Source: an uncultured Acidobacteriota bacterium
GTDB taxonomy: Bacteria > Acidobacteriota > Thermoanaerobaculia > Multivoradales > SZUA-115
Assembly: GCA_937867335.1 (NCBI GenBank)
Contig: CALMKX010000115.1
Coordinates: 1 to 36,515 of the forward strand
Length of the DNA: 36,515 nucleotides
Direction: 5' to 3'
Shown: in pieces, positions 21,395 to 36,187 of the stretch
Numbering within the stretch: position 1 is the first letter of the stretch
How the letters are laid out: every line of letters starts with the position of its first letter
Translations under genes and position numbers: made by a program
Notes under the pieces: generated by a model
Database searches by the model: none
Told to the model about the DNA's origin: nothing
What the model saw: only the letters and a program-made list of their open reading frames with translations

Positions 21395-23998
21395 CTAGCT
21401 GCCGACCTCCACAAGCTCGATGATCGGCCCTTCGGGGAGGCGGCCGGAGGAGAGGTCCACTCGGGCCTCGAGGTACCAGGTGTTGTCTTCCTGGGGGTCG
21501 AGCAGCACTTGGCGGATACGCCAGGTTCGGGCTCCGGTGGGGGTGATCACCGTGCGATCGGCGCGACGGGCCTCGCCGTTGAAGAGCAGCTCGCCGTGTT
21601 CTGCGAAGAACGGCGCCAGCTCGGCTTCGAAGCGATCGGCGGTCCAGGCGGCCTCGGCGTCCTCGCCGGAGCGTACCCAGAGGGCGGCCTCGGCGAAGTC
21701 CTTCACCGAAAGGGCGCGTACCAGCTGGTGCATCTCGGCGCGCACCCGGGCGGCGAAGGCCCGGCGATCCGAGAGCAGCTCCTGGGCCCTGCGTTCGGCG
21801 CGATCGAGCTCCCGCTCCGGCCGGGATTCGAAGTGCCACTCCGGATGGAGCAGGCTCTCCCATTCCTCGAGCAGGCTGGTATCGGTGTGCTCGATCAGAG
21901 CGCGGAAGAAGCCCTGGATGTCGTCAAGCTCCTCGTTCTTCGAGGCCTCCGGCACGTTCTGGGTCAACGTCTTGTACACCTGTGAGAGGTACCGCAGCAG
22001 CACGCCCTCGCTGCGCTCGAGGCCCAAGGACCGAACGTAATCGTTGAAGCTCCAGTAGCCCTCGTACATCTCGCGGCCGATCGACTTGGGATGGATGTTC
22101 TCGTGCCGCACCCAGGGGTGGAGCTCGCGGAATTGGTCGAAGGTGTCGTAGATGAACTCGGCGTTCGGCTTGAGATAGGTGATCTGCTCCAGCCGCTCCA
22201 TGCGCTCTTCGTAGTCGATGCCCTCTGCCTTCCACTGGGCGATCGCCTGGCCCTTGAGCTTGTCGACCTGCTTGTAAAGCACCGCGTTCGGATTCTCGAG
22301 CACGGACTCCACCAAGGTCAGCACATCGAGAGCGTAGGTGAGGGCCTCGAAAGAAAGCAGGTTGAGCGTTTCCACCATGTAGAGCGAGAGCGTGTGGAAC
22401 AGAGAAAAGTCCCATTGCAGGTCTTCGGAAATGGTGACCCACAGGTAGGAAGTCTGGGTATCCCGCACCATTTTGACCAGCCCGGCCCGGTACAGCGAGC
22501 GCACCAGCTGGGCCGCGGTGGTGAAATGCTCGCGCTTGCGCTCCTCGCTGTCGTGGCAGCGCGTGATCAAGCGTCGAAGCGAGGCGAAGTTGTCCGAATT
22601 CGGGTCATTGCGATCCGCGTCCTGCTGGAGCAAGCTCATCACCATGCTGTGAGTGACGCGGAAGCGCGAGGTGAGCATCTCGGGAGGCCGTTCTCGCAGC
22701 TTTTCGAAAGTCTCCTTGTTCCACGCGATGAAGCCTTTGGCCGGAGGCTTCCTCTTCACCACGTTCTTCTTAGCCGAGGCGGCGAGCCGCAGATTCTCGA
22801 TCACGTGCTCGGGCGCCTGGCAAACCACGCTGCCCTGGGTGTCGAAACCTTTTCTTCCGGCGCGGCCGGAGATCTGCTTGAAATCACGAACCGAGAGGAT
22901 CACCGTCTTTTCGCCGTCGAACTTGCAGAGCTTGGTGAAGAGCACAGTGCGCAGCGGGATGTTCACGCCCACGCCGAGAGTGTCGGTGCCGCAGATCACC
23001 CGCAGGAGACCCCGCTGCGACAGCTGCTCCACCAGCAGCCGATACTTGGGCAAGAGCCCCGCGTGATGCACGCCGATGCCGAAGGAGAGGAAGCGCCGGA
23101 ACTCCTTGCCGTAGGGAGTGTCGAAACGGAAGCCGCCCAGGGCTTCGGCGATCGCCTGCCTCTCCTCACGGCTGGCGATCTTCATGCTGGTCAAGTTCTG
23201 GGCCAGCTCGGCGCACTCCCTCTGGGTGAAGTTGACAATGTAAATAGGAGACTTGCCGCTCGCCAGGAGATCCTCCACGGTTTCGTGCAGAGGCGTCTCG
23301 CGGTACTCGTAGTCGAGCGGAACCGGCCGGTGGTCGGAAGTCACCACCGCCACCTCGCGGCCGGTGTCGCGAGCGAGCCGCTCTGCGATCGGCGCGGTGT
23401 TGCCGAGCGTGGCCGACATCAGAAGGAAAGTGGTGCCGGGGAGGCTGATCAGCGGCACCTGCCAGGCCACCCCGCGCTCGGCGTCGGAGTAGTAGTGGAA
23501 CTCGTCCATCACCACGTAGGGAGCATCGAGGAGCTCCCCCTGGCGCAGCGCCATGTTCGAGAGCACCTCGGCGGTGCAACAACGAACCGGTGCCTGGGCG
23601 TTGATCGCAGCGTCGCCGGTGAGCATGGCCACCCGAGCGGCGCCGAAGTCCTCGCAGAGGGAGAAGAACTTCTCGCTGGCGAGAGCCTTGATGGGCGAGG
23701 TGTAGAAGGAGGTCTTGCCCTCGCAGAGCGCCTTGAAGTGGAGCCCCAGCGCCACCAGGGATTTGCCCGAACCGGTCGGCGTGTTGAGGATCACGTGCTT
23801 GCCGGCCATGATCTCGAGCAGGGCTTCCTCCTGGGCCGGATAGAGCTCGAAGCCGGCCTCGGCGCACCAGCCGAGGAAGAGGTCGAGAATCTCGTCCGGG
23901 TCCCGGGTGCCGCGAGGAGGCACTCGTTCGCCCAGGCTGGGGCGGCCGAGGTCGGTCTCGTCGCTGCTTGCTGTCTCGTTCATGTCGTTCCGGCTCAT
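21395..23998 (-). CDS. Ski2-like DExH helicase with DUF3516-type C-terminus
   Basis: An 867-residue SF2 helicase. Walker A is TPTGSGKS (about 73-80), motif Ia TSPIKALASEK, the DExH box MDEFHYYSD (DEFH at 165-168), motif III MSATLGN, and motif VI QISGRAGRKGFDTQG. These place it in the Ski2/Lhr-like group. The C-terminal half (about 480-867) lacks the RecQ or Lhr domains. It resembles the DUF3516 region seen after such helicases in actinobacteria (recalled, not searched), with an acidic stretch then a final small beta domain (WYLEARVDLSSGRLPEG). It probably remodels RNA or structured nucleic acid; no exosome-type partner is next to it. The ATG at 23998 is chosen; a GTG at 24016 and an ATG at 23983 are alternatives. 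The RluA-family gene lies 30 bp upstream on the same strand, so they may be cotranscribed. Confidence 0.88.
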   Translation of the reverse strand: MSRNDMNETASSDETDLGRPSLGERVPPRGTRDPDEILDLFLGWCAEAGFELYPAQEEALLEIMAGKHVILNTPTGSGKSLVALGLHFKALCEGKTSFYTSPIKALASEKFFSLCEDFGAARVAMLTGDAAINAQAPVRCCTAEVLSNMALRQGELLDAPYVVMDEFHYYSDAERGVAWQVPLISLPGTTFLLMSATLGNTAPIAERLARDTGREVAVVTSDHRPVPLDYEYRETPLHETVEDLLASGKSPIYIVNFTQRECAELAQNLTSMKIASREERQAIAEALGGFRFDTPYGKEFRRFLSFGIGVHHAGLLPKYRLLVEQLSQRGLLRVICGTDTLGVGVNIPLRTVLFTKLCKFDGEKTVILSVRDFKQISGRAGRKGFDTQGSVVCQAPEHVIENLRLAASAKKNVVKRKPPAKGFIAWNKETFEKLRERPPEMLTSRFRVTHSMVMSLLQQDADRNDPNSDNFASLRRLITRCHDSEERKREHFTTAAQLVRSLYRAGLVKMVRDTQTSYLWVTISEDLQWDFSLFHTLSLYMVETLNLLSFEALTYALDVLTLVESVLENPNAVLYKQVDKLKGQAIAQWKAEGIDYEERMERLEQITYLKPNAEFIYDTFDQFRELHPWVRHENIHPKSIGREMYEGYWSFNDYVRSLGLERSEGVLLRYLSQVYKTLTQNVPEASKNEELDDIQGFFRALIEHTDTSLLEEWESLLHPEWHFESRPERELDRAERRAQELLSDRRAFAARVRAEMHQLVRALSVKDFAEAALWVRSGEDAEAAWTADRFEAELAPFFAEHGELLFNGEARRADRTVITPTGARTWRIRQVLLDPQEDNTWYLEARVDLSSGRLPEGPIIELVEVGS

Positions 23999-24027
23999 CC
24001 GCGGAGGCCCCCTCACGGGCCGAGCGG

Positions 24028-24942
24028 CTACTGTACCAGCCCGAGTCCAGAACCAGCGGGAAGGCGCTCTGCCATTTCCGGCGGCAAGGGCGAGCTCACG
24101 CGCAAGGGCTCGCCCGTCTTCGGGTGCGGCAGCGAGATCTCGGCGGCGTGGAGGAGGGGGCGGCCTGCGCTGCCTTCTCTCGCGCCGTAGAGCCGGTCGC
24201 CCACCACGGGATGGCCGACCGAGGCGAGGTGCACGCGCACCTGGTGGGTTCGGCCGGTCGAGAGGCGGCAGGCGAGCAGGCTTTCCTGCTCTCCCCGCAC
24301 CACCACCCGCACCTCCGTGCGGGCCGGCTTGCCGTCGGCTCGGGCCTCGAATCGCCAGGCGCCGTCAGCGGATCGGGCGATCGGCGCCTCCACTCGAAGC
24401 TCCTCGAAAGCCGGGCAGCCCTCCACCACCGCCAGGTACCGTCGCTCGACTTGCCCCTCGCGCCAGGCTCGGGCGAGCGGGGCGTGGGCGGCGGGGTTCG
24501 CGGCGAAGAGCAGCAGGCCGCTGGTGCCGCGGTCCAGGCGGTGCACCAGCTGGAGGCAGGGCTTGCGGCCCGCCTCGAGGGCGAGCTGGAGCAGCAGCCG
24601 CTCGTCGAGGGCAAGCTCGCCCGGTGCCCGTTCCTCGGCCGGCTGGGAGAGCACCCCCGGCGGCTTCTCGGCGAAGACCAGCCAGTCGTCCCGGTAGGCC
24701 AGGTGGACGAGGGGAACATCCGGGCGGGCCGGCAGCTCGGAAGTGGGGGGCAAGGAAAGCAAGTCGATCACCTCGCCGGTGGCGACCGGCCTCGCCATCA
24801 CCCGGCTCACCTGGCCGTTGCGGGCCACCTCGCCGTCCGCGAGCAGGCTACGGCAGCGACGGCGGGAGAGCGGCGTGGCAGCGGCCAGGAATTGGTCCAG
24901 CCGCAGGCCGTTGTGCCAGGGGAAAACGACGAGGCGAATCAT
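24028..24942 (-). CDS. RluA-family RNA pseudouridine synthase
   Basis: A 304-residue enzyme that isomerises uridine to pseudouridine in rRNA or tRNA. An N-terminal S4-like RNA-binding segment (about 12-62, LRLDQFLAAATPLSRRRCRSLLADGEV) is followed by the catalytic domain. The signature HRLDRGTSG lies at 134-142 with catalytic Asp137. Further motifs are the tyrosine-containing RRYLAVVEG and the later CRLSTGRTHQVRVHLASVGHPVVGD, which is characteristic of RluA/RluC/RluD. The exact target site cannot be told from sequence. The ATG at 24942 lacks a clear ribosome site. The helicase gene follows 30 bp downstream, hinting at a shared RNA-processing transcript. Confidence 0.92.
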   Translation of the reverse strand: MIRLVVFPWHNGLRLDQFLAAATPLSRRRCRSLLADGEVARNGQVSRVMARPVATGEVIDLLSLPPTSELPARPDVPLVHLAYRDDWLVFAEKPPGVLSQPAEERAPGELALDERLLLQLALEAGRKPCLQLVHRLDRGTSGLLLFAANPAAHAPLARAWREGQVERRYLAVVEGCPAFEELRVEAPIARSADGAWRFEARADGKPARTEVRVVVRGEQESLLACRLSTGRTHQVRVHLASVGHPVVGDRLYGAREGSAGRPLLHAAEISLPHPKTGEPLRVSSPLPPEMAERLPAGSGLGLVQ

Positions 24943-25020
24943 CTCGATGAGGGTCGAGAGGCAGCCGGTGGTGGCCGCCTCGGCTTTTCGAGTCTCTTGC
25001 CGAGCTTCCAGGGGGAAGAG

Positions 25021-26736
25021 CTACTGGAGCGTCTCGCGCAGCACCTCTTCGATCGAGGTGACGCCCTCTCGAATCTTGGCGAGACCGCTGCCGCGCAGGG
25101 TCATCATGCCCTTCTCGGTGGCCTTCTGGCGCAGCTCGAAGGCGTTCGCTCCGGAGAGGATCAGGTCGCGAATCTCCTCGTCCACTTCCATCACCTCGTA
25201 GAGCCCCACGCGCCCCTTGTAGCCGGTGTTGTTGCAGCGGTCGCAGCCGCGGCCGCGGAAGAGCTTGAGGGAGCGGGCCTCCTGCTCGGAGAAGCCGACG
25301 TTGACCAGGGCTCCGATCGGCGCTTCGTAGGGCTCCTTGCAGAACGAGCAGACCCGCCTCACCAGCCGCTGAGCCGCGATCAGGTGTACCGAAGTGGCCA
25401 CCAGGAAGGGCTCGATGCCCATGTTCATCAGGCGGCTGATGGTGGAGGGAGCGTCGTTGGTGTGCAGCGTGGAGAGCACCAGGTGGCCGGTCAGGGCGGC
25501 CTTGATCGCCACCTCGGCGGTCTCGAAGTCACGGATCTCGCCCACCAGGATGACGTTGGGGTCCTGCCGCAGGAAGGAGCGCAGGGCGGCCGCGAAGTTC
25601 AGGCCGATCTGCTCCTTCATCTGCACCTGGTTGATGCCGGGCAGGTTGAATTCCACCGGGTCTTCGGCGGTGATGATGTTGATGTCGATCTGGTTGATGC
25701 GCGACAGGGCCGAGTAGAGCGTGTTGGTCTTGCCCGAGCCGGTGGGGCCGGTGACCAACACCATGCCGTAGGGCTTCAGGATCGCCTGCTCGAACCGACG
25801 CATCGAGTCGGGCTCGAAGCCCAAGCGCGAGAGGTCGAGCATCAGGTTGTCCTTGTCGAGCAGCCGCATCACGATCTTCTCGCCGAAGATGGTGGGCAGC
25901 ACCGAGACCCGCAGGTCCAGGTCCTTGACCTTGTTCTGGACCTTGGTCTTGATCTTGATGCGGCCGTCCTGCGGCAAGCGCTTCTCGGCGATGTCCAGCT
26001 TGGCCATGATCTTGATGCGGCTGGTGATCGCTTCGCGCAGCTTGAGCGGCGGGTGCATCACGTCGTAGAGCAGACCGTCGATGCGGAAGCGCACTCGGTA
26101 GTCCTTCTCGTACGGCTCGACGTGGATGTCCGAAGCGCCCCGCTTGATGGCGTCGGTCATGAAGATGTTCACCAGCTTCACCACCGGGGCCTGCTCGGCG
26201 TCGTCTTCCAGGGTGGCGAGGTCGAGCTCCTGCTCCTCTTCGAGCACTTCGAGATCGGTCTCGATCTCCTCGGTCATGTTCTCCATGACCTTCTTGAGCT
26301 CGATGGCGTGAGTGCTGCCGTAGTACTTGTCGATGGCGTTGCGGATCGACGTCTCCGACGCCACCACCGGCTCCACCTTGTAGCCGGTCATGAACTTGAT
26401 GTCGTCGACGGCGAAGACGTTGGTGGGGTCCACCATCGCCAGGGTCACCGTGGCGCCGGCCTTGCCCACCGGCAGGATGGTGTACTTGCGGGCGATCTCG
26501 GCCGGCACGATCTTGATCACCGCCTCGTCGACCTCGACGGCGTCGAGGTCGATGGCCGGCACCCCGAAGTGCTGGGACAGGGCCTGAATCAGCTCGCGGT
26601 CGGTGATGAAGCCCTGCTTGACCAGGATCGTGCCGATGCGCCCTCCCTGTTCCTTCTGGAGGGCCAGGGCGGCGGTCAGCTGTTGCTGGTTGATCTTGCC
26701 GGTCTTGAGCAGGACCTCGCCGAATCGATTCGCCAT
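25021..26736 (-). CDS. pilB: type IV pilus assembly ATPase PilB (GspE family)
   Basis: A 571-residue cytoplasmic ATPase that powers pilus extension. The N-terminal MshEN-type region (about 1-140) holds RFGEVLLKTGKINQQQLTAA and a second copy-like segment RIGTILVKQGFITDRELIQA, a layout known to bind c-di-GMP in relatives. An acidic linker (about 156-182) follows. The ATPase core has Walker A GPTGSGKT (330-337), the aspartate box around 358, Walker B ILVGEIRD (396-403) and a histidine box LSTLHTNDAPST. Zinc ligands are C463, C466, C498 and C501. AGGAG lies about 6 nt before the ATG. No other pil gene is adjacent, which is unusual because pilB often sits with pilT and pilC. The GGDEF cyclase at 8.3-10 kb could supply its regulator, by inference. 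Confidence 0.93.
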   Translation of the reverse strand: MANRFGEVLLKTGKINQQQLTAALALQKEQGGRIGTILVKQGFITDRELIQALSQHFGVPAIDLDAVEVDEAVIKIVPAEIARKYTILPVGKAGATVTLAMVDPTNVFAVDDIKFMTGYKVEPVVASETSIRNAIDKYYGSTHAIELKKVMENMTEEIETDLEVLEEEQELDLATLEDDAEQAPVVKLVNIFMTDAIKRGASDIHVEPYEKDYRVRFRIDGLLYDVMHPPLKLREAITSRIKIMAKLDIAEKRLPQDGRIKIKTKVQNKVKDLDLRVSVLPTIFGEKIVMRLLDKDNLMLDLSRLGFEPDSMRRFEQAILKPYGMVLVTGPTGSGKTNTLYSALSRINQIDINIITAEDPVEFNLPGINQVQMKEQIGLNFAAALRSFLRQDPNVILVGEIRDFETAEVAIKAALTGHLVLSTLHTNDAPSTISRLMNMGIEPFLVATSVHLIAAQRLVRRVCSFCKEPYEAPIGALVNVGFSEQEARSLKLFRGRGCDRCNNTGYKGRVGLYEVMEVDEEIRDLILSGANAFELRQKATEKGMMTLRGSGLAKIREGVTSIEEVLRETLQ

Positions 26737-26995
26737 CGGGTTCTCCTGGGGAGCGAAGCAGGTCAGCGAGTTCCAAGTCGCCCACCTTGCCGGGTCTCGC
26801 TTGCTCGCCCTTCAGGCCCCCCGATGGGAGGCCGACGAGCCAGCCTGTTCCGCCCCGAGACGCACCAAGCAGCTGAGCTTCCACCACCTGGCGTACGAAC
26901 CAAGTTACAGCCGTGCCTTCCAGCCGTGGCGCAGAAGCATAGCAGCGGCCGAAAACGTGGCAAAGGGCAGGGGCGGAGGAGCTGCAAGGCGACGG

Positions 26996-28189
26996 TCAAA
27001 TCAGCATCTGGTCCAGGTGCCTGTCGATGGTCCGCTTGTGCTCCTCTCTCGCGGGCGACTCGGGTCGAAACGCCCGCCAAGCGTCCCGAATCCGCTGGGC
27101 GTCTTCGTCGACCCAGTGGACGAACACTTGCTCGTCCTCGTCCAGTTTGCGGGCGAGGCGGCGGAAGCGCTGTCGATCCACCCCCCGGAACCTCTTGGTG
27201 CCTACGAAGTTCAGGGCCAGCTCCTCGTAGTCGGGGTACACCCTCGTCGAGACAAGGTCGTAGGCTGGGCCCAAGGCCGGTGCCAGCTCGTTGGGATACG
27301 AGAGAGACCAGTTCTTGAGGTGCGCATCGCCGTTACCAGACAGAACCATGAACACAAGCCGGCGAACCAATTGCCGGAAGTCTCCGGGTGGGCAGATCCT
27401 GCGCACGATGTTGGCCAGGGACTCGTAGTTCGTGGCCTCGTACTTTTCGTCCGGGAAGACTCCCAGCACTTGGGCGAAGTCCTCTTGGTGGACCCTCCTG
27501 CCGTCTTCAAGGCGGTCATAGCGCCTGACCCCGAGTGCGAAGCCCTCTGCATACGTCCAGGTCACTGGCAAGGGGTCGATCTGCTCCACAGGTACGAGCC
27601 GGTGGTTGGGGACGTCAATGCCTGCTCGCCGAGCCCATTGCAGGTCGGAATACTCCAGCGAGGGGAGATCGGGGTGGTGGGGGTCAGGAAGTTTGAGAAT
27701 CCACTTGCCGCTGCTATCGGAAGCAGGCAGAGTCCAGCGCTGCTCTGAGAACTCGGCTGGAAATTTCAGCTGCAGGCCGGCCAGGGAGAACCGGAAGCCA
27801 CGCCTTGTGGTAAGCGGCCTAACTATCGCCGGGACGCCAAGAGTTCCAGACCCTTCCTCCCCAGTTCCCCCGGCCAGCACCCGCACCGCTCCTGGGAGGT
27901 CGGTACCCAGATATGCCATCAGCTGGGCCTCGCGCTGCTCGTTGACTCCCAACTGGCCGGAGAGAAATCGGCGCAAGGCGCCCTCAGGCAGCAGGTTCGA
28001 AAAAAAGGGAGGCAGCAGCAGCGTGGCGCTGTGAGCCCGCTCGAGGTCGTCTTCAAAGCTCTGGCTGAGAACCGGGCGATGCTCGAGCTCCAGGTAGGAG
28101 TCGAAGAACTGGAACGTCCAGGTATCGCTTCCCTTCCTCTCCAGTCGCCCCACAGGGAGAGCGTTGAGGTAGACATCGAGGCGATTCAT
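26996..28189 (-). CDS. HipA-like serine/threonine kinase, partner of a DUF262 protein
   Basis: A 397-residue protein with the HipA fold. The N-terminal HipA-1 domain (about 1-110, LDVYLNALPVGRLERKG, LPPFFSNLLPEGALRR) is followed by the kinase domain. The phosphate-binding loop SLAGLQLKF (135-143) includes Ser135, the counterpart of the autophosphorylated serine of HipA. ATP-binding Lys166 is in ILKLP, RYDR at 223-226, the catalytic NGDAHLKN at 286-293 (Asp288, Asn293), and the metal-binding DLVS at 311-314. All key residues look intact, so it should be an active kinase; the family stalls growth by phosphorylating targets such as glutamyl-tRNA synthetase. HipA genes usually follow a HipB antitoxin. 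Here the upstream gene, overlapping by 4 nt (ATGA at 28186-28189), is DUF262 and no HipB is present. Confidence 0.88.
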   Translation of the reverse strand: MNRLDVYLNALPVGRLERKGSDTWTFQFFDSYLELEHRPVLSQSFEDDLERAHSATLLLPPFFSNLLPEGALRRFLSGQLGVNEQREAQLMAYLGTDLPGAVRVLAGGTGEEGSGTLGVPAIVRPLTTRRGFRFSLAGLQLKFPAEFSEQRWTLPASDSSGKWILKLPDPHHPDLPSLEYSDLQWARRAGIDVPNHRLVPVEQIDPLPVTWTYAEGFALGVRRYDRLEDGRRVHQEDFAQVLGVFPDEKYEATNYESLANIVRRICPPGDFRQLVRRLVFMVLSGNGDAHLKNWSLSYPNELAPALGPAYDLVSTRVYPDYEELALNFVGTKRFRGVDRQRFRRLARKLDEDEQVFVHWVDEDAQRIRDAWRAFRPESPAREEHKRTIDRHLDQMLI

Positions 28190-29847
28190 TCGTCCTTCAG
28201 TGTGAGATATCCGATTGTAGGTCGGTCGAGGTCCGCGGCATCCCAATCTGCCTTGCGGCGAATGAACTCGGCTACCAGCTGGCAAAGCAGCGCGTGGCGC
28301 TGGGCGAGAAAACCCTCGACGTCGCCAGCCTCCAACGCAGCGCGAGCTTCTGGAGAGACGGCGTGAGAAGCGAGTACCGCTGGATCCTCACTGCGCGCCA
28401 ACCACTCGCGCAGCTGCGACGGCGCCGCGACGGGGTGCAGGATTCTCGAAGCGATCTCCTTCGCGTAGGGCAAGTCAGCCTGGGCGCTCGAGGTGAGGCG
28501 TACTGCCGGGCCTTCGTCTTGATCACAGAAGGCAGCAAAGACCAAGAGCTCTCCGGCCGGTTGCTCGTCGAGAAGGTCCGCTGGCTGGAGACTCCGAGGT
28601 TTGCGGCTTGCAAGCGCAACCAGTTGCACCTTGCTGCGAGCCTTGCTCAGGTCAAACGCTCCGAGCCCGGCGCTGTCCTCCGGCCGGCGCTCCACGGTCT
28701 TGAGCAACCGCTGCACCGAGCCCTCTTCGTCGTCGTTCTGGATCGCCCCGATCATCCAGCGCAGAGCTTGCGTGCCCCAAGCGTGCTCGCGATTCGTGGC
28801 CCCTCGCCACAGCCAGCGAGAGAGCAGCTTCAGCGAGTTCGGCCGCGGGAGGGGGTGAAAGTGAAAGAACCGGCACAGCCCAGCGATCGGGAAACCGTAG
28901 GGCAGGAGGGTGATATGGGGCACCTCCGCTTCCTCTTGGAGAAAGCGAATCACCGCACTCAGGGCGCGCTGCGTCTTGCCTAGCGTCTCCAGGACGCGGG
29001 CTTCGTCCAGTTTCCTGAACTGCTCGGCACCGTTGCTGGGGTTCAGCCCTTCCAGGGCAATGACGGCTTGGAGGATCAGGTTCTCGGGGATACGCCCGAA
29101 GCCCAATCCGAGAAGGTCTTGGGCGACTGCTCGCAATGAGCTCGGCTCCTGGCCGCCTTCGGAGCGGATGAACAAGGCGTCGAAGACCTCGTCCTGGGTC
29201 ATGCGCTTGCCGGACTGGTTGGTGCGCTCGAAAATCTGTCGGAGGACAGCTTCATCTTCGGTTTCGACAATGTAAGCAGGAATCTGGTATTCGCGGAGCC
29301 TCTTGCCAACCTCGAGGGCAGCATCGAATTGGTGCTTGTCCTGCACCAGATGCTTGTCTGCGGCCCAGCGCAGGAGGCGGCTGGAGTCTAGAGTCTCCGA
29401 GACCGGCAGCCACCTCGGAGCCGGGCATTGCCGCTCTTGGCCATAGGCGAAGAGGCGGTTGTGGAGGTCGAAGCGGATGGCGCGACCAGGTGGCGGGGCT
29501 TCGTCAGCGAGCAGCAGATCCGCCAGAGAGGTGATCCTCTGCTGCCCATCCACGACCCACAGCGCATCCTCACGGGTTGGGGCCTCTCTTTCCCAGCGGC
29601 CGAGCTTCACGGTGCCAGCCTCGGCCCGTTTTCGCCACAGCAGAAGAGTGCCCACAGGGAAGCCGCGATAAAGGCTGTCGAGGAGAGCGACGCGGTCCTT
29701 GTCCTCCCACTTGAGACCACGCTGGAAGCGGGGTACCCGGATCTGCCCCTGGGCCACGAGCTGAAGCAGATCCTCCACCGAGAAGGACCTCGCCTCCGGG
29801 CGCCTGGCTAGGCGAGGGGGTAGGGATGCCGCTGTCTCAGGAGCCAT
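28186..29847 (-). CDS. DUF262 (GmrS/ParB-like) protein, first gene of a DUF262-HipA operon
   Basis: A 553-residue protein. The N-terminal DUF262 domain is clear: VPRFQRGLKW (38-47), SLYRGFPVGTLLLW (58-71) and VVDGQQRITSL (98-108), then FERTNQSGKRMTQDEV near 208-223. DUF262 is the ParB/sulfiredoxin-like nucleotide-hydrolysing half of GmrSD-type modification-dependent restriction enzymes. The rest (about 230-553) is helical and has no visible HNH motif of the DUF1524 partner, so the nuclease half is absent or replaced. Its stop overlaps the HipA-like start. GGAGG lies 9 nt before the ATG, and a palindrome sits 21 nt upstream. A role as sensor or antitoxin controlling the kinase is inference. 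It is divergent from the FAH-family gene. Confidence 0.85.
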   Translation of the reverse strand: MAPETAASLPPRLARRPEARSFSVEDLLQLVAQGQIRVPRFQRGLKWEDKDRVALLDSLYRGFPVGTLLLWRKRAEAGTVKLGRWEREAPTREDALWVVDGQQRITSLADLLLADEAPPPGRAIRFDLHNRLFAYGQERQCPAPRWLPVSETLDSSRLLRWAADKHLVQDKHQFDAALEVGKRLREYQIPAYIVETEDEAVLRQIFERTNQSGKRMTQDEVFDALFIRSEGGQEPSSLRAVAQDLLGLGFGRIPENLILQAVIALEGLNPSNGAEQFRKLDEARVLETLGKTQRALSAVIRFLQEEAEVPHITLLPYGFPIAGLCRFFHFHPLPRPNSLKLLSRWLWRGATNREHAWGTQALRWMIGAIQNDDEEGSVQRLLKTVERRPEDSAGLGAFDLSKARSKVQLVALASRKPRSLQPADLLDEQPAGELLVFAAFCDQDEGPAVRLTSSAQADLPYAKEIASRILHPVAAPSQLREWLARSEDPAVLASHAVSPEARAALEAGDVEGFLAQRHALLCQLVAEFIRRKADWDAADLDRPTIGYLTLKDE

Positions 29848-29867
29848 GCTGGCGCGCCTCCGGTGTC

Positions 29868-29885
29868 TTACGCCTCGAAGCGTAA
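29868..29885. promoter_or_regulatory. operator-like palindrome before the DUF262-HipA operon
   Basis: TTACGC and GCGTAA form a perfect 6-bp inverted repeat around a 6-nt centre. It begins 21 bp upstream of the DUF262 start codon, close to where the transcript should begin. Its place suits autoregulation of the operon, as usual for toxin-antitoxin loci, although no helix-turn-helix protein is encoded in it. Confidence 0.45.
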
Positions 29886-29905
29886 CACGAGCTACGCCTT
29901 CACGG

Positions 29906-29947
29906 CTTGCCCGGCCCGGTGGGTCGGTTTATGTTCTCCCGGGCAAG
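29906..29947 (+). promoter_or_regulatory. sigma-70-like promoter within a 9-bp inverted repeat, for the FAH-family gene
   Basis: A -35 box TTGCCC (29907-29912) and a -10 box TATGTT (29930-29935) are 17 bp apart, and the gene starts 30 bp further on at 29965. The left arm of a perfect inverted repeat (CTTGCCCGG, 29906-29914) covers the -35 box. The right arm (CCGGGCAAG, 29939-29947) covers the expected transcription start. That arrangement suits repressor binding. Confidence 0.45.
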
Positions 29948-29964
29948 TCACGGGAGATACCAAG

Positions 29965-33670: not shown

Positions 33671-33770
33671 GCTCAGTCTCCCGAGGCCGGCGAGATGGGT
33701 GCTGGGGCTCGGCCGGCAGTGAACCGCGAGTCTAACCGCTCCCGGGGTATCATGGGCCAGGGGCAAGACG

Positions 33771-34253
33771 ATGAAGATCTCCACACGCGGTGAATACGGC
33801 ATCCGGGCCATGCTCTACATCGCCATGCATGGCGAAGAGCGGCCGGTGACCAGCCACGAGATCGCCCACCACCAGGCGATCCCCGAGCCCTACCTGCGGC
33901 AGATCCTCGCTCTGCTCTCGAAGGACCGGCTGATCCAGTCCAACCGCGGCCCTCAGGGCGGGCATACCCTCGGCCGGCCCGCCGAGTCCATCACCCTGCG
34001 GGACGTCCTCCTCACCCTGGAAGGCCACACGACTTCTATCGACCAGATCCTCTCCCTGCCCTGCGCGATCGACATCGGGACCGAGTACTGCGCCATCCGC
34101 GAGGTGCTGCTGGAGGTACGAGAGGCGGTGGAGCAGATCCTCACTCGGGTGACCCTCGGGCAACTGGTGGAACGTCAGCGCACGATCCTCACCCAGAAGA
34201 TCAACGTGCCGTTCTTCCCCTCGAACCCATGCCTGCCGGTGGTGCGCGACTAG
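33771..34253 (+). CDS. Rrf2-family transcriptional regulator
   Basis: A 160-residue winged-helix protein. The N-terminal MKISTRGEYGIRAMLYIA, then VTSHEIAHHQAIPEPYLRQIL and SNRGPQGGHTLGRPAESITLRDV, are the standard Rrf2 signatures and form the DNA-binding domain. The sensor segment has only two cysteines, C98 and C107, where IscR/NsrR-type regulators carry three; a third, C154, is near the end. Iron-sulfur binding is therefore possible but atypical. It starts with AGGGG 8 nt before the ATG. It is divergent from the small membrane protein and overlaps the next small lipoprotein gene by 25 bp. It could regulate its neighbours, perhaps including the ATP synthase cluster, but nothing shows this directly. 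Confidence 0.88.
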   Translation: MKISTRGEYGIRAMLYIAMHGEERPVTSHEIAHHQAIPEPYLRQILALLSKDRLIQSNRGPQGGHTLGRPAESITLRDVLLTLEGHTTSIDQILSLPCAIDIGTEYCAIREVLLEVREAVEQILTRVTLGQLVERQRTILTQKINVPFFPSNPCLPVVRD

Positions 34254-34447
34254 CCTGGCTGCTCTGCGGTGGGTTGCTGGCGGCCGGCTGTGGAGGCCGG
34301 ACGGCCGAGAGCCCGAAGCCGGCGGCGCTGTCACCCATCCAGATCGTCGAGGAGCACCCGATCGACTCGCCCGGCCGCTCGGCCGTCGAGGCAGGGGAGC
34401 CGGCCCCGCCCTCCAAGGAAGTCCCGGCGGCCGAGCAAAGCCCCTGA
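34229..34447 (+). CDS. small predicted lipoprotein
   Basis: A 72-residue protein with a lipoprotein signal: a basic N-terminus, a hydrophobic core, and lipobox LAAGC with Cys21. The rest is proline- and glutamate-rich and probably unstructured (PIQIVEEHPIDSPG, PAPPSKEVPAAEQSP). It overlaps the end of the Rrf2 gene by 25 bp in another frame and has no visible ribosome site, so translation may depend on coupling. It could be spurious, but the lipobox makes a real gene more likely than not. Confidence 0.5.
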   Translation: MPAGGARLAWLLCGGLLAAGCGGRTAESPKPAALSPIQIVEEHPIDSPGRSAVEAGEPAPPSKEVPAAEQSP

Positions 34448-34499
34448 GGGACATCCCATCCCCTCGTTCCGGACCAACGAGCTTCTTGAGCGCCGGTTC

Positions 34500-34528
34500 T
34501 TGAATCGGCCCGCGCTCGCTGGTACACT
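34500..34528 (+). promoter_or_regulatory. sigma-70 promoter of the ATP synthase cluster
   Basis: A -35 box TTGAAT (34500-34505) and a -10 box TACACT (34523-34528) are exactly 17 bp apart, in a 177-bp gap otherwise free of genes. Transcription should start near 34535, giving a leader of about 90 nt before the first gene at 34625. Confidence 0.6.
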
Positions 34529-34593
34529 CCGCGCGGTTCGTAAGGCGGCCCATGGCAGGGTGCAGCGTTCCGCCAGGACGCCATCTCGATCTG

Positions 34594-34616
34594 CGGGACG
34601 TACGGCTTACGTCCCG
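34594..34616 (+). promoter_or_regulatory. 9-bp hairpin in the leader just before the AtpZ-like start
   Basis: CGGGACGTA and TACGTCCCG form a perfect 9-bp stem with a 5-nt loop, ending 8 nt before the ATG at 34625. No Shine-Dalgarno sequence lies between hairpin and start, and no T run follows. It is more likely a translational or mRNA-stability element, or a protein-binding palindrome, than a terminator. Confidence 0.5.
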
Positions 34617-34624
34617 ACTCCCCA

Positions 34625-34894
34625 ATGCCGAGCGAGGAACCGAAGCGCAACCCCTGGCTGCGCCTGTCCTCCCTAGGTATGGAGCTGGCCGGAGCGGCTG
34701 CCGGGGGCACTCTCCTCGGCTACTGGCTCGACCGGCGCTACGGTACCAGTCCACGGTGGCTCCTGGTGGGCGCCCTGGTAGGCATCGGTGGAGGTCTGTA
34801 CAACCTGATCCGCTCAGCTCTCGCGGCAAGCCGGGAGTCGTCGCGCGAGGCGGAGCGGCAGAAGCGCCAGGACGGGAACGACCGAGACGGCTGA
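34625..34894 (+). CDS. atpZ: AtpZ/AtpI-type ATP synthase accessory membrane protein
   Basis: An 89-residue protein with two membrane helices. The first is within MELAGAAAGGTLLGYWLDRRYG and the second within WLLVGALVGIGGGLYNLIRS, ending in a charged tail. The GYWLDRRYGTSP turn is characteristic of the short F0F1 ATPase_gene1 family that opens many atp operons. Relatives help assemble the c-ring or transport magnesium/calcium with AtpI. The next gene starts 1 bp after its stop. There is no Shine-Dalgarno site and a 9-bp hairpin sits just upstream. Confidence 0.8.
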   Translation: MPSEEPKRNPWLRLSSLGMELAGAAAGGTLLGYWLDRRYGTSPRWLLVGALVGIGGGLYNLIRSALAASRESSREAERQKRQDGNDRDG

Positions 34895-34895
34895 A

Positions 34896-35324
34896 ATGAG
34901 CCTCACCCCTGCAAGCCGACTAGCTGCCTGGGGGTATTTTCGGTTCTTCCTGGGAGTTGCCGCCGTGAGCTTGTTTCTGGTGGCGATCGGCTGGGGCCCC
35001 ACGGTGCGTTGGGGGGGAGAGAGTGGGCCGCGGGCGATGCTCCTGGCGCTCGGGGCCTGTGCCTTCGCTTCGCTGGTGGGAGGGGTCCCGGTCGCACTCG
35101 CCCAGGCGAGTGGCGACCCCCGGCGAGCGGTGACGGCAGTACTCGGCTCGTTGGCTTTGCGGTTCTTTGTGGCACTCGCAATGATCGTGAGCACGCTTCT
35201 GAGCGGTAAGGTGGCTCAGGCGCCGCTCCTGATCTGGTTCGTCCTCGGTTACTTCGCGCTCCTGGCACTCGACGCTCTCTACGCTCGAAGCGCCACGCGC
35301 GCCCGGCCCACGTCGGAGAAGTGA
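34896..35324 (+). CDS. ATP synthase subunit I-like (AtpI) membrane protein
   Basis: A 142-residue protein with four hydrophobic segments (about 13-31, 46-66, 79-100 and 108-128) and a basic C-terminus. The sequence is poorly conserved, but its length, four-helix layout and place between an AtpZ-like gene and atpB fit subunit I, thought to assist c-ring assembly. The start follows the previous stop by one base. Its own stop overlaps the atpB start as TGATG, so it is tightly coupled. Confidence 0.7.
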   Translation: MSLTPASRLAAWGYFRFFLGVAAVSLFLVAIGWGPTVRWGGESGPRAMLLALGACAFASLVGGVPVALAQASGDPRRAVTAVLGSLALRFFVALAMIVSTLLSGKVAQAPLLIWFVLGYFALLALDALYARSATRARPTSEK

Positions 35325-36187
35325 TGGCGGTAGAACAGGCAAGCGAGGGTTTGAACCCCCTCGAGCACATCGTCCAGCACCCGCTGGTGACGCGACCGGC
35401 CGACGCCGGTCTGCTCACCCCCAACCACCAGATCACCCTGCTCTCGGACCAGATCGTGATGATGCTGGTCGGCGGGCTGTTGCTGGTTCTGCTGGTGCCG
35501 ATCCTGGTTCGCAAGCGGCGGGCGAAGGACGGCATCGGCTCCCTGGTTCCGGCCGGGGCGGGAAATGCAATCGAGTTCATCTGCGCCTTCCTGCGCAAGG
35601 AAGTGGCCGAGCCGGCCCTGGGGCACCACACCGACCGCTTCATCAAGTACATCTGGAGCCTCTTCTTCTTCGTGCTGACCATGAACCTGATGGGAGTGAT
35701 CCCGCTCGGTGCGGTGACACCCCTTTTCGGCACCCACATCGGCGGCACACCTACCGGCAACGTCTTCGTCACCGGCACACTCGCGGTGCTCACCCTGCTG
35801 ATGATGGTGGTCAACGGGCTTCGGCTGGGCGGCAAGGCCTACATCGCCCACCTCTGCCCGGGCCCGCTCTGGCTCGCCCCCCTGCTGGTTCCGCTCGAGA
35901 TCATCGGCATCTTCTCGAAGGCCTTCGCCCTGGCAGTCCGACTTTTTGCCAACATGATCGCCGGCCACATCCTGCTCGCCGTCCTGGTGGGCTTCATCTT
36001 GATGGCGGGCAAAGCCATGGGAGCCGGGGGCGGCATCGGTGTCGCCCTGCTCTCGGTGCCGGCGAGCGTGGCCATCACGGTTTTTGAGATCGCGGTCGCC
36101 TTCCTGCAGGCTTTCATCTTCACCTTCCTGACCACGTTGTTCCTCGGCATGTCGGTCAACGTGCATCACGAGGAGCACAGCCACTAG
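35324..36187 (+). CDS. atpB: ATP synthase subunit a
   Basis: A 287-residue subunit a of the membrane Fo sector, which forms the proton path against the c-ring. The essential arginine is Arg206 in KAFALAVRLFANMIAGH. Other conserved parts are KYIWSLFFFVLTMNLMGVIP and the last helix FLQAFIFTFLTTLFLGM, with a histidine-rich tail. The ATG at 35324 has GGAG 5 nt upstream; a GTG one codon earlier is an alternative. The gene follows the AtpI-like gene with a 1-nt overlap. No sodium-type signature could be judged from this subunit alone. Confidence 0.95.
   Translation: MAVEQASEGLNPLEHIVQHPLVTRPADAGLLTPNHQITLLSDQIVMMLVGGLLLVLLVPILVRKRRAKDGIGSLVPAGAGNAIEFICAFLRKEVAEPALGHHTDRFIKYIWSLFFFVLTMNLMGVIPLGAVTPLFGTHIGGTPTGNVFVTGTLAVLTLLMMVVNGLRLGGKAYIAHLCPGPLWLAPLLVPLEIIGIFSKAFALAVRLFANMIAGHILLAVLVGFILMAGKAMGAGGGIGVALLSVPASVAITVFEIAVAFLQAFIFTFLTTLFLGMSVNVHHEEHSH

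Follow-up and report, generated by a model that had tools for sequence, protein, structure and literature searches.

The data presented here identify a conserved pair of genes in which a HipA-type kinase is encoded directly behind, and in overlap with, a DUF262 protein. The pair lies in a window (the whole stretch of DNA that was analysed) of 36,515 nucleotides from an uncultured Acidobacteriota bacterium, and it is probably a stand-alone growth-arrest module, of the toxin-antitoxin or the anti-phage kind, with a make-up that has not been described before. The explanation that we favor, and regard as fairly probable, is a toxin-antitoxin-like module whose DUF262 protein, nuclease-dead and nucleotide-binding, would hold HipA in check and release it on a signal.

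Results

The first gene of the pair encodes a DUF262 (GmrSD_N) protein of 553 aa (28186..29847, minus strand; Pfam GmrSD_N, E 1.3e-27), and is followed by the gene for a HipA-type Ser/Thr kinase of 397 aa (26996..28189, minus strand). The kinase ATG at 28189 falls inside the DUF262 stop codon in an ATGA overlap (28186..28189, minus strand); the junction reads GACGAATGAATCGC, and the kinase ATG within the stop reads GAATGAATCGC. The initial annotation had reported an intact HipA kinase whose start overlaps the stop of a DUF262 gene, and coordinates, Pfam domains and the ATGA junction all agree with it. Gene order and overlap indicate a translationally coupled operon, from which the DUF262 protein would be translated first. 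The genome holds a single DUF262 gene and a single HipA gene, namely these two. It had also been claimed that no helix-turn-helix (HTH) HipB is encoded, and indeed no HTH gene was found among the adjoining genes, the overlapping upstream gene being that of the DUF262 protein, without an HTH match.

Upstream of the pair, the intergenic region between divergent genes (29848..29964) contains a 24-bp imperfect palindrome (29865-29888) that lies 18 nt ahead of the DUF262 start (p ∼0.08 by shuffling). No conserved operator or palindrome was detected upstream of the pair across relatives, so that the palindrome is isolated and its meaning unproven, and an Rfam search returned no match. The flanking genes are ordinary: a type II secretion/pilus (T2SS) ATPase, a pseudouridine synthase and a fumarylacetoacetate (FAA)-hydrolase-family gene. 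Elsewhere in the window, a 1116-codon open frame on the plus strand (23968-27318) runs antisense to real genes and is a shadow of GC-rich coding sequence, and two minus-strand frames of 359 and 310 aa (33750-34829 and 34903-35835) have no Pfam match.

The kinase belongs to the HipA family, with the HipA_C core, the P-loop serine, the catalytic D/N and the Mg-binding D. Couple_hipA (N-subdomain 1) covers residues 4-104 (Pfam, E 3e-20) and the kinase core residues 134-371 (Pfam HipA_C, E 3.6e-46). Equivalents of E. coli HipA S150, G153, K157, K181, D309, H311, K313, N314 and D332 are present in 37 of 37 kinases compared, and the predicted fold matches HipA/HipT.

In the DUF262 protein, the nucleotide-binding domain (residues ∼18-226) carries PRFQR (39-43), LLDSL (55-59), DGQQR (100-104) and RTNQSG (208-213). 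Across the 37 paired proteins the motifs FQR...W, GxPxG, DGQQR and RxNxxG are invariant or nearly so, and R43, W47, DGQQR, R208, N210 and G213 are invariant in every one. The predicted structure (pLDDT 86.5) aligns with BrxU (7p9k) over 475 residues at Z 17.1, with an rmsd of 15 Å that reflects a different domain arrangement; residues 214-537 match the C-terminal domain of SspE at Z 9.3, which is under the level that separates helical folds safely, and the N-terminal part matches ParB-like domains.

The C-terminal half (residues ∼300-553; 28189..28950, minus strand) is homologous to the C-terminal halves of HNH-bearing DUF262 proteins with an HHxxP...N...N motif (hhalign 97.7%), a motif that we take to correspond to DHIYP in BrxU. 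The window protein has no (D/H)HxxP nuclease motif; the histidine pair of this motif is missing from all 37 HipA-paired proteins, and a lone histidine occurs at either column in two sequences only. A search with Pfam DUF1524 (GmrSD_C), which succeeded in 6 of the 14 control genomes, gave no match in the DUF262 protein or in the whole genome. The earlier claim that no DUF1524 nuclease half is encoded therefore stands as regards Pfam DUF1524 matches, but not as regards homology: a diverged, motif-less homologue of the BrxU/GmrSD nuclease half, predicted to be catalytically dead, makes up the DUF262 protein's own C-terminal half. Loss of the nuclease motif is common to DUF262 proteins of the PDC-M55C type (L005, L006, L049 and L050), which in Paracoccus are accompanied by two other partner genes; hence the lineage appears to have ceded the effector role to partners.

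Conservation of the pair was examined by a search keyed on DUF262, with an alignment of three sequences, across 84,980 species genomes. It yielded 36 DUF262 loci (a single-sequence scan of the same genome contigs gave none), and at 34 of these, found independently of HipA, a HipA gene lies directly downstream on the same strand; the adjacency exceeds chance. Intact pairs make up 31 of the 34, with the HipA start −11 to +13 nt from the DUF262 stop, mostly at 0 or −4. The other three are damaged: L021 has a frame-broken kinase and L033 a frame-broken DUF262 gene. In L037 (4593-7092), a deletion fuses a truncated DUF262 to a kinase without its first ∼53 residues. The two loci without a downstream HipA are L038, which stops at a contig edge, and L016, where hipA is missing and DUF262 is interrupted by an in-frame stop. 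With these two exceptions, DUF262 proteins scoring above 285 bits with the three-sequence model have HipA, and those below ∼191 bits do not.

Hosts belong to the Pseudomonadota, Myxococcota, Actinomycetota and Planctomycetota, plus one Ignavibacteriota metagenome bin (L018), in which the module is 81-84% identical to the Azospirillum module, so that misbinning and transfer are both possible. The gene pair, in unchanged order, also occurs on plasmids of Azospirillum sp. B510 and A. argentinense, with identities of 39% for DUF262 and 43% for HipA. The search for conserved pairs that the initial annotation had called for thus finds the pairing in at least four phyla, and it is not unique to this genome. 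Distances between DUF262 proteins and between their kinases are closely correlated (Mantel r = 0.965 over 36 pairs), and none of 2000 permutations reached as high a value (maximum 0.41). Among close pairs, dN/dS is 0.09-0.24 in both genes, which evolve at an equal pace and under purifying selection. Conserved pairing, translational overlap, co-divergence and purifying selection together strongly support a real two-gene system.

Which gene occupies the upstream position in related kinases was followed with a kinase-only search of 396 genomes of the phylum, which found relatives in 12 genomes. Two are paired with DUF262 (the window genome and G008; the search of the order added G022 as a third), and the other ten (kinases L134, L135, L137-L144) have an XRE-type HTH gene upstream of the kinase, overlapping it or at most 15 nt away in seven; in the remaining three the gap is estimated at 32-127 nt, and the kinase frames there are broken or uncertain. 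An HTH_3 gene likewise lies upstream of related HipA genes on Rhizobium, Bradyrhizobium and Sinorhizobium plasmids. DUF262 thus occupies the antitoxin position: the closest HipA relatives that lack it carry an HTH (HipB-type) gene at this upstream site. An early idea, that every kinase above the score threshold is DUF262-paired, was overturned by this phylum sample with its HTH-paired kinases.

In the kinase tree, 40 DUF262-paired and 13 other kinases form one clade (support 100/100), apart from E. coli HipA. Partner type changed at least twice on the best tree, the backbone of which lacks resolution, and a single origin is also compatible with it. The direction of the swap, from HipB to DUF262, we infer from the usual association of HipA with HipB. 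A Jiella pelagia plasmid (L103:2601-4212) carries a HipA of the same clade with an overlapping upstream gene (129 aa) without a recognised HTH, which may be another type of partner or may reflect a miscalled start.

Among 115 neighbouring genes there was no defence-island enrichment, and three matched defence families (two RtcR-like, one Fic). The gene neighbourhoods therefore lend no support to the earlier proposal of a defence system. A phage-borne system is not supported either, since IMG/VR and phage records contained no close relative. The GC3 of the pair is 0.74-0.76 compared with 0.87-0.94 in the T2SS ATPase, pseudouridine synthase and FAA hydrolase genes, although some other window genes are equally low, and the module is present in one of three genomes of the family and missing from the other two. 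Lower GC3 and patchy presence make acquisition by transfer likely, though not proven; in the empty-site comparison the window's flanking genes lay on separate contigs in relatives. One Methylococcaceae bin (G164) has two modules, the damaged L033, with its kinase intact, and the intact L130, and either cross-protection or an assembly error is possible there.

Discussion

In the mechanism that we propose, a DUF262 protein related to GmrSD/BrxU would replace the HipB antitoxin, bind the kinase and restrain it, the kinase being the putative growth-arresting effector. The nucleotide-binding domain might sense the NTP state or abnormal or modified DNA, as in BrxU and SspE, and the kinase would then be released. 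Growth would halt once freed HipA had phosphorylated its cellular target, which the examples of HipA and HipT would suggest to be an aminoacyl-tRNA synthetase. Phages could be the trigger, and phage defence the role. Gating of the kinase by the DUF262 protein is plausible, given the latter's place in the HipB slot and its retained nucleotide motifs. A broken DUF262 gene beside an intact kinase, as in L033, argues against a strict antitoxin, unless it reflects an assembly error or rescue by the second intact module.

The strongest analogy for restraint, and the nearest precedent, is HipAD/DS-6, in which a HipA-family toxin is neutralised by an unrelated partner and which provides phage defence; the kinase is required for defence, and deletion of the partner is toxic (PMC12548924, PMC13092281). 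Pairing of a HipA kinase with an unrelated protein is therefore already known. HipAD/DS-6/PDC-M66 and the window pair are both two-gene units that join a HipA-family kinase to a protein not related to HipB. However, the partner is a DUF3037/DUF1829 protein in the former and a DUF262 protein in the latter; no DUF3037/DUF1829 Pfam match occurred in 31 members, and the kinase had no PDC-M66 model match at E 1e-5. The hipBA operon of E. coli K-12 shares with the window pair a full-length HipA, the same catalytic residues, an upstream gene in the antitoxin position and an overlapping start, but encodes the HTH protein HipB where the window has DUF262. In hipBST, the kinase is without N-subdomain 1, which is given in trans as HipS, whereas the window kinase has Couple_hipA fused. 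The ten hip operons of Gerdes et al. 2021 (hipBA, hipBST, hipEB, yjjJ/hipH, hipRF, hipRG, hipMP, hipL, hipIN and hipJS) likewise pair a Hip kinase with a putative antitoxin, and DUF262 is absent from the partners (PMC8262856).

Alternatively, the DUF262 protein could be an active sensor that switches HipA on, with HipA silent when alone. The DUF262 part of BrxU is the NTP-dependent part of restriction, and multi-gene candidates such as PDC-M55 and ptuXYZ employ a nuclease-less DUF262. Nevertheless, we consider this activating role rather unlikely, as DUF262 sits in the slot of the HipB antitoxin, and the kinase, with a HipS-like subdomain of its own and every catalytic residue in place, gives no hint of needing an activator. 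Less probable still is that HipA phosphorylates, and thereby controls, the DUF262 protein as a regulator, and that no toxin is involved. Close co-divergence suits any enzyme-substrate pair and the neighbourhoods are ordinary; against this, the DUF262 protein is without nuclease residues and without an evident output of its own, and characterised HipA kinases have outside targets (PMC8262856).

A further explanation concerns purpose, and overlaps with restraint of HipA by DUF262, whose mechanism it shares: the module could be addiction cargo, kept for self-maintenance and with no role in defence. The patchy distribution, the GC3 below that of adjacent genes, the plasmid-borne copies in Azospirillum, the broken copies (L016, L021 and L037) and the lack of defence islands are consistent with this. 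On the other hand, the nearest analogue, HipAD, is a defence system and relatives of DUF262 are mostly defence proteins, and on balance we find self-maintenance as the sole purpose unlikely, though not as unlikely as either of the two preceding alternatives. Returning to the restraint of HipA, a more specific version holds that a former type IV restriction enzyme, its nuclease lost, would serve as a nucleotide- or DNA-sensing antitoxin of HipA, and that the pair would represent a new class of Hip toxin-antitoxin or abortive-infection system. We propose it tentatively, at somewhat less than even chances; if true, the sensing of invading DNA in the manner of a restriction enzyme would be linked directly to kinase-driven growth arrest.

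In the literature covered, which left out preprints and most subscription journals, no paper was found that joins HipA and DUF262 as a system, and PADLOC-DB held only a remote model for the DUF262 partner and no strong one for the kinase. The initial annotation had taken the combination to be undescribed; within that literature and PADLOC-DB this holds, and given the coverage it should be regarded as provisional. The Hip kinase family thus gains a widespread and apparently undescribed partner, and in a HipA operon the place of the antitoxin can apparently be filled by a retired restriction enzyme. Should the DUF262 protein be the sensor of the trigger, the sensing of NTPs or abnormal DNA would be tied to protein phosphorylation and growth arrest. 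What releases HipA kinases also becomes testable, insofar as a ligand of DUF262 can be sought directly.

Other DUF262 systems resemble the pair in part. GmrSD/BrxU and the window protein share a nucleotide-binding domain with DGQQR and, overall, a two-domain fold, but the former have a DHIYP-type HNH motif, in place of which the window pair would use a separate kinase as effector. PDC-M55 and ptuXYZ, like the window pair, combine DUF262 with partner genes instead of an HNH half; in those systems DUF262 is joined by an ATPase plus a further protein (or RNase), in the window by HipA. The window DUF262 matches PDC-M55C over its full length but remotely (182 bits, versus 417 bits for the protein from a complete Paracoccus locus). 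PDC-M55C was rejected as its identity, since the name marks a different three-gene system, complete in Paracoccus. Membership of PDC-M55 was likewise rejected, the window having no PDC-M55A ATPase or PDC-M55B genes next to the pair but the T2SS ATPase and FAA hydrolase genes. On a Klebsiella pneumoniae plasmid (L009:3955-6548), a PDC-M55C-like DUF262 gene overlaps by 1 base with an upstream gene weakly matching AbiP, and the two may form a further DUF262 system of two genes.
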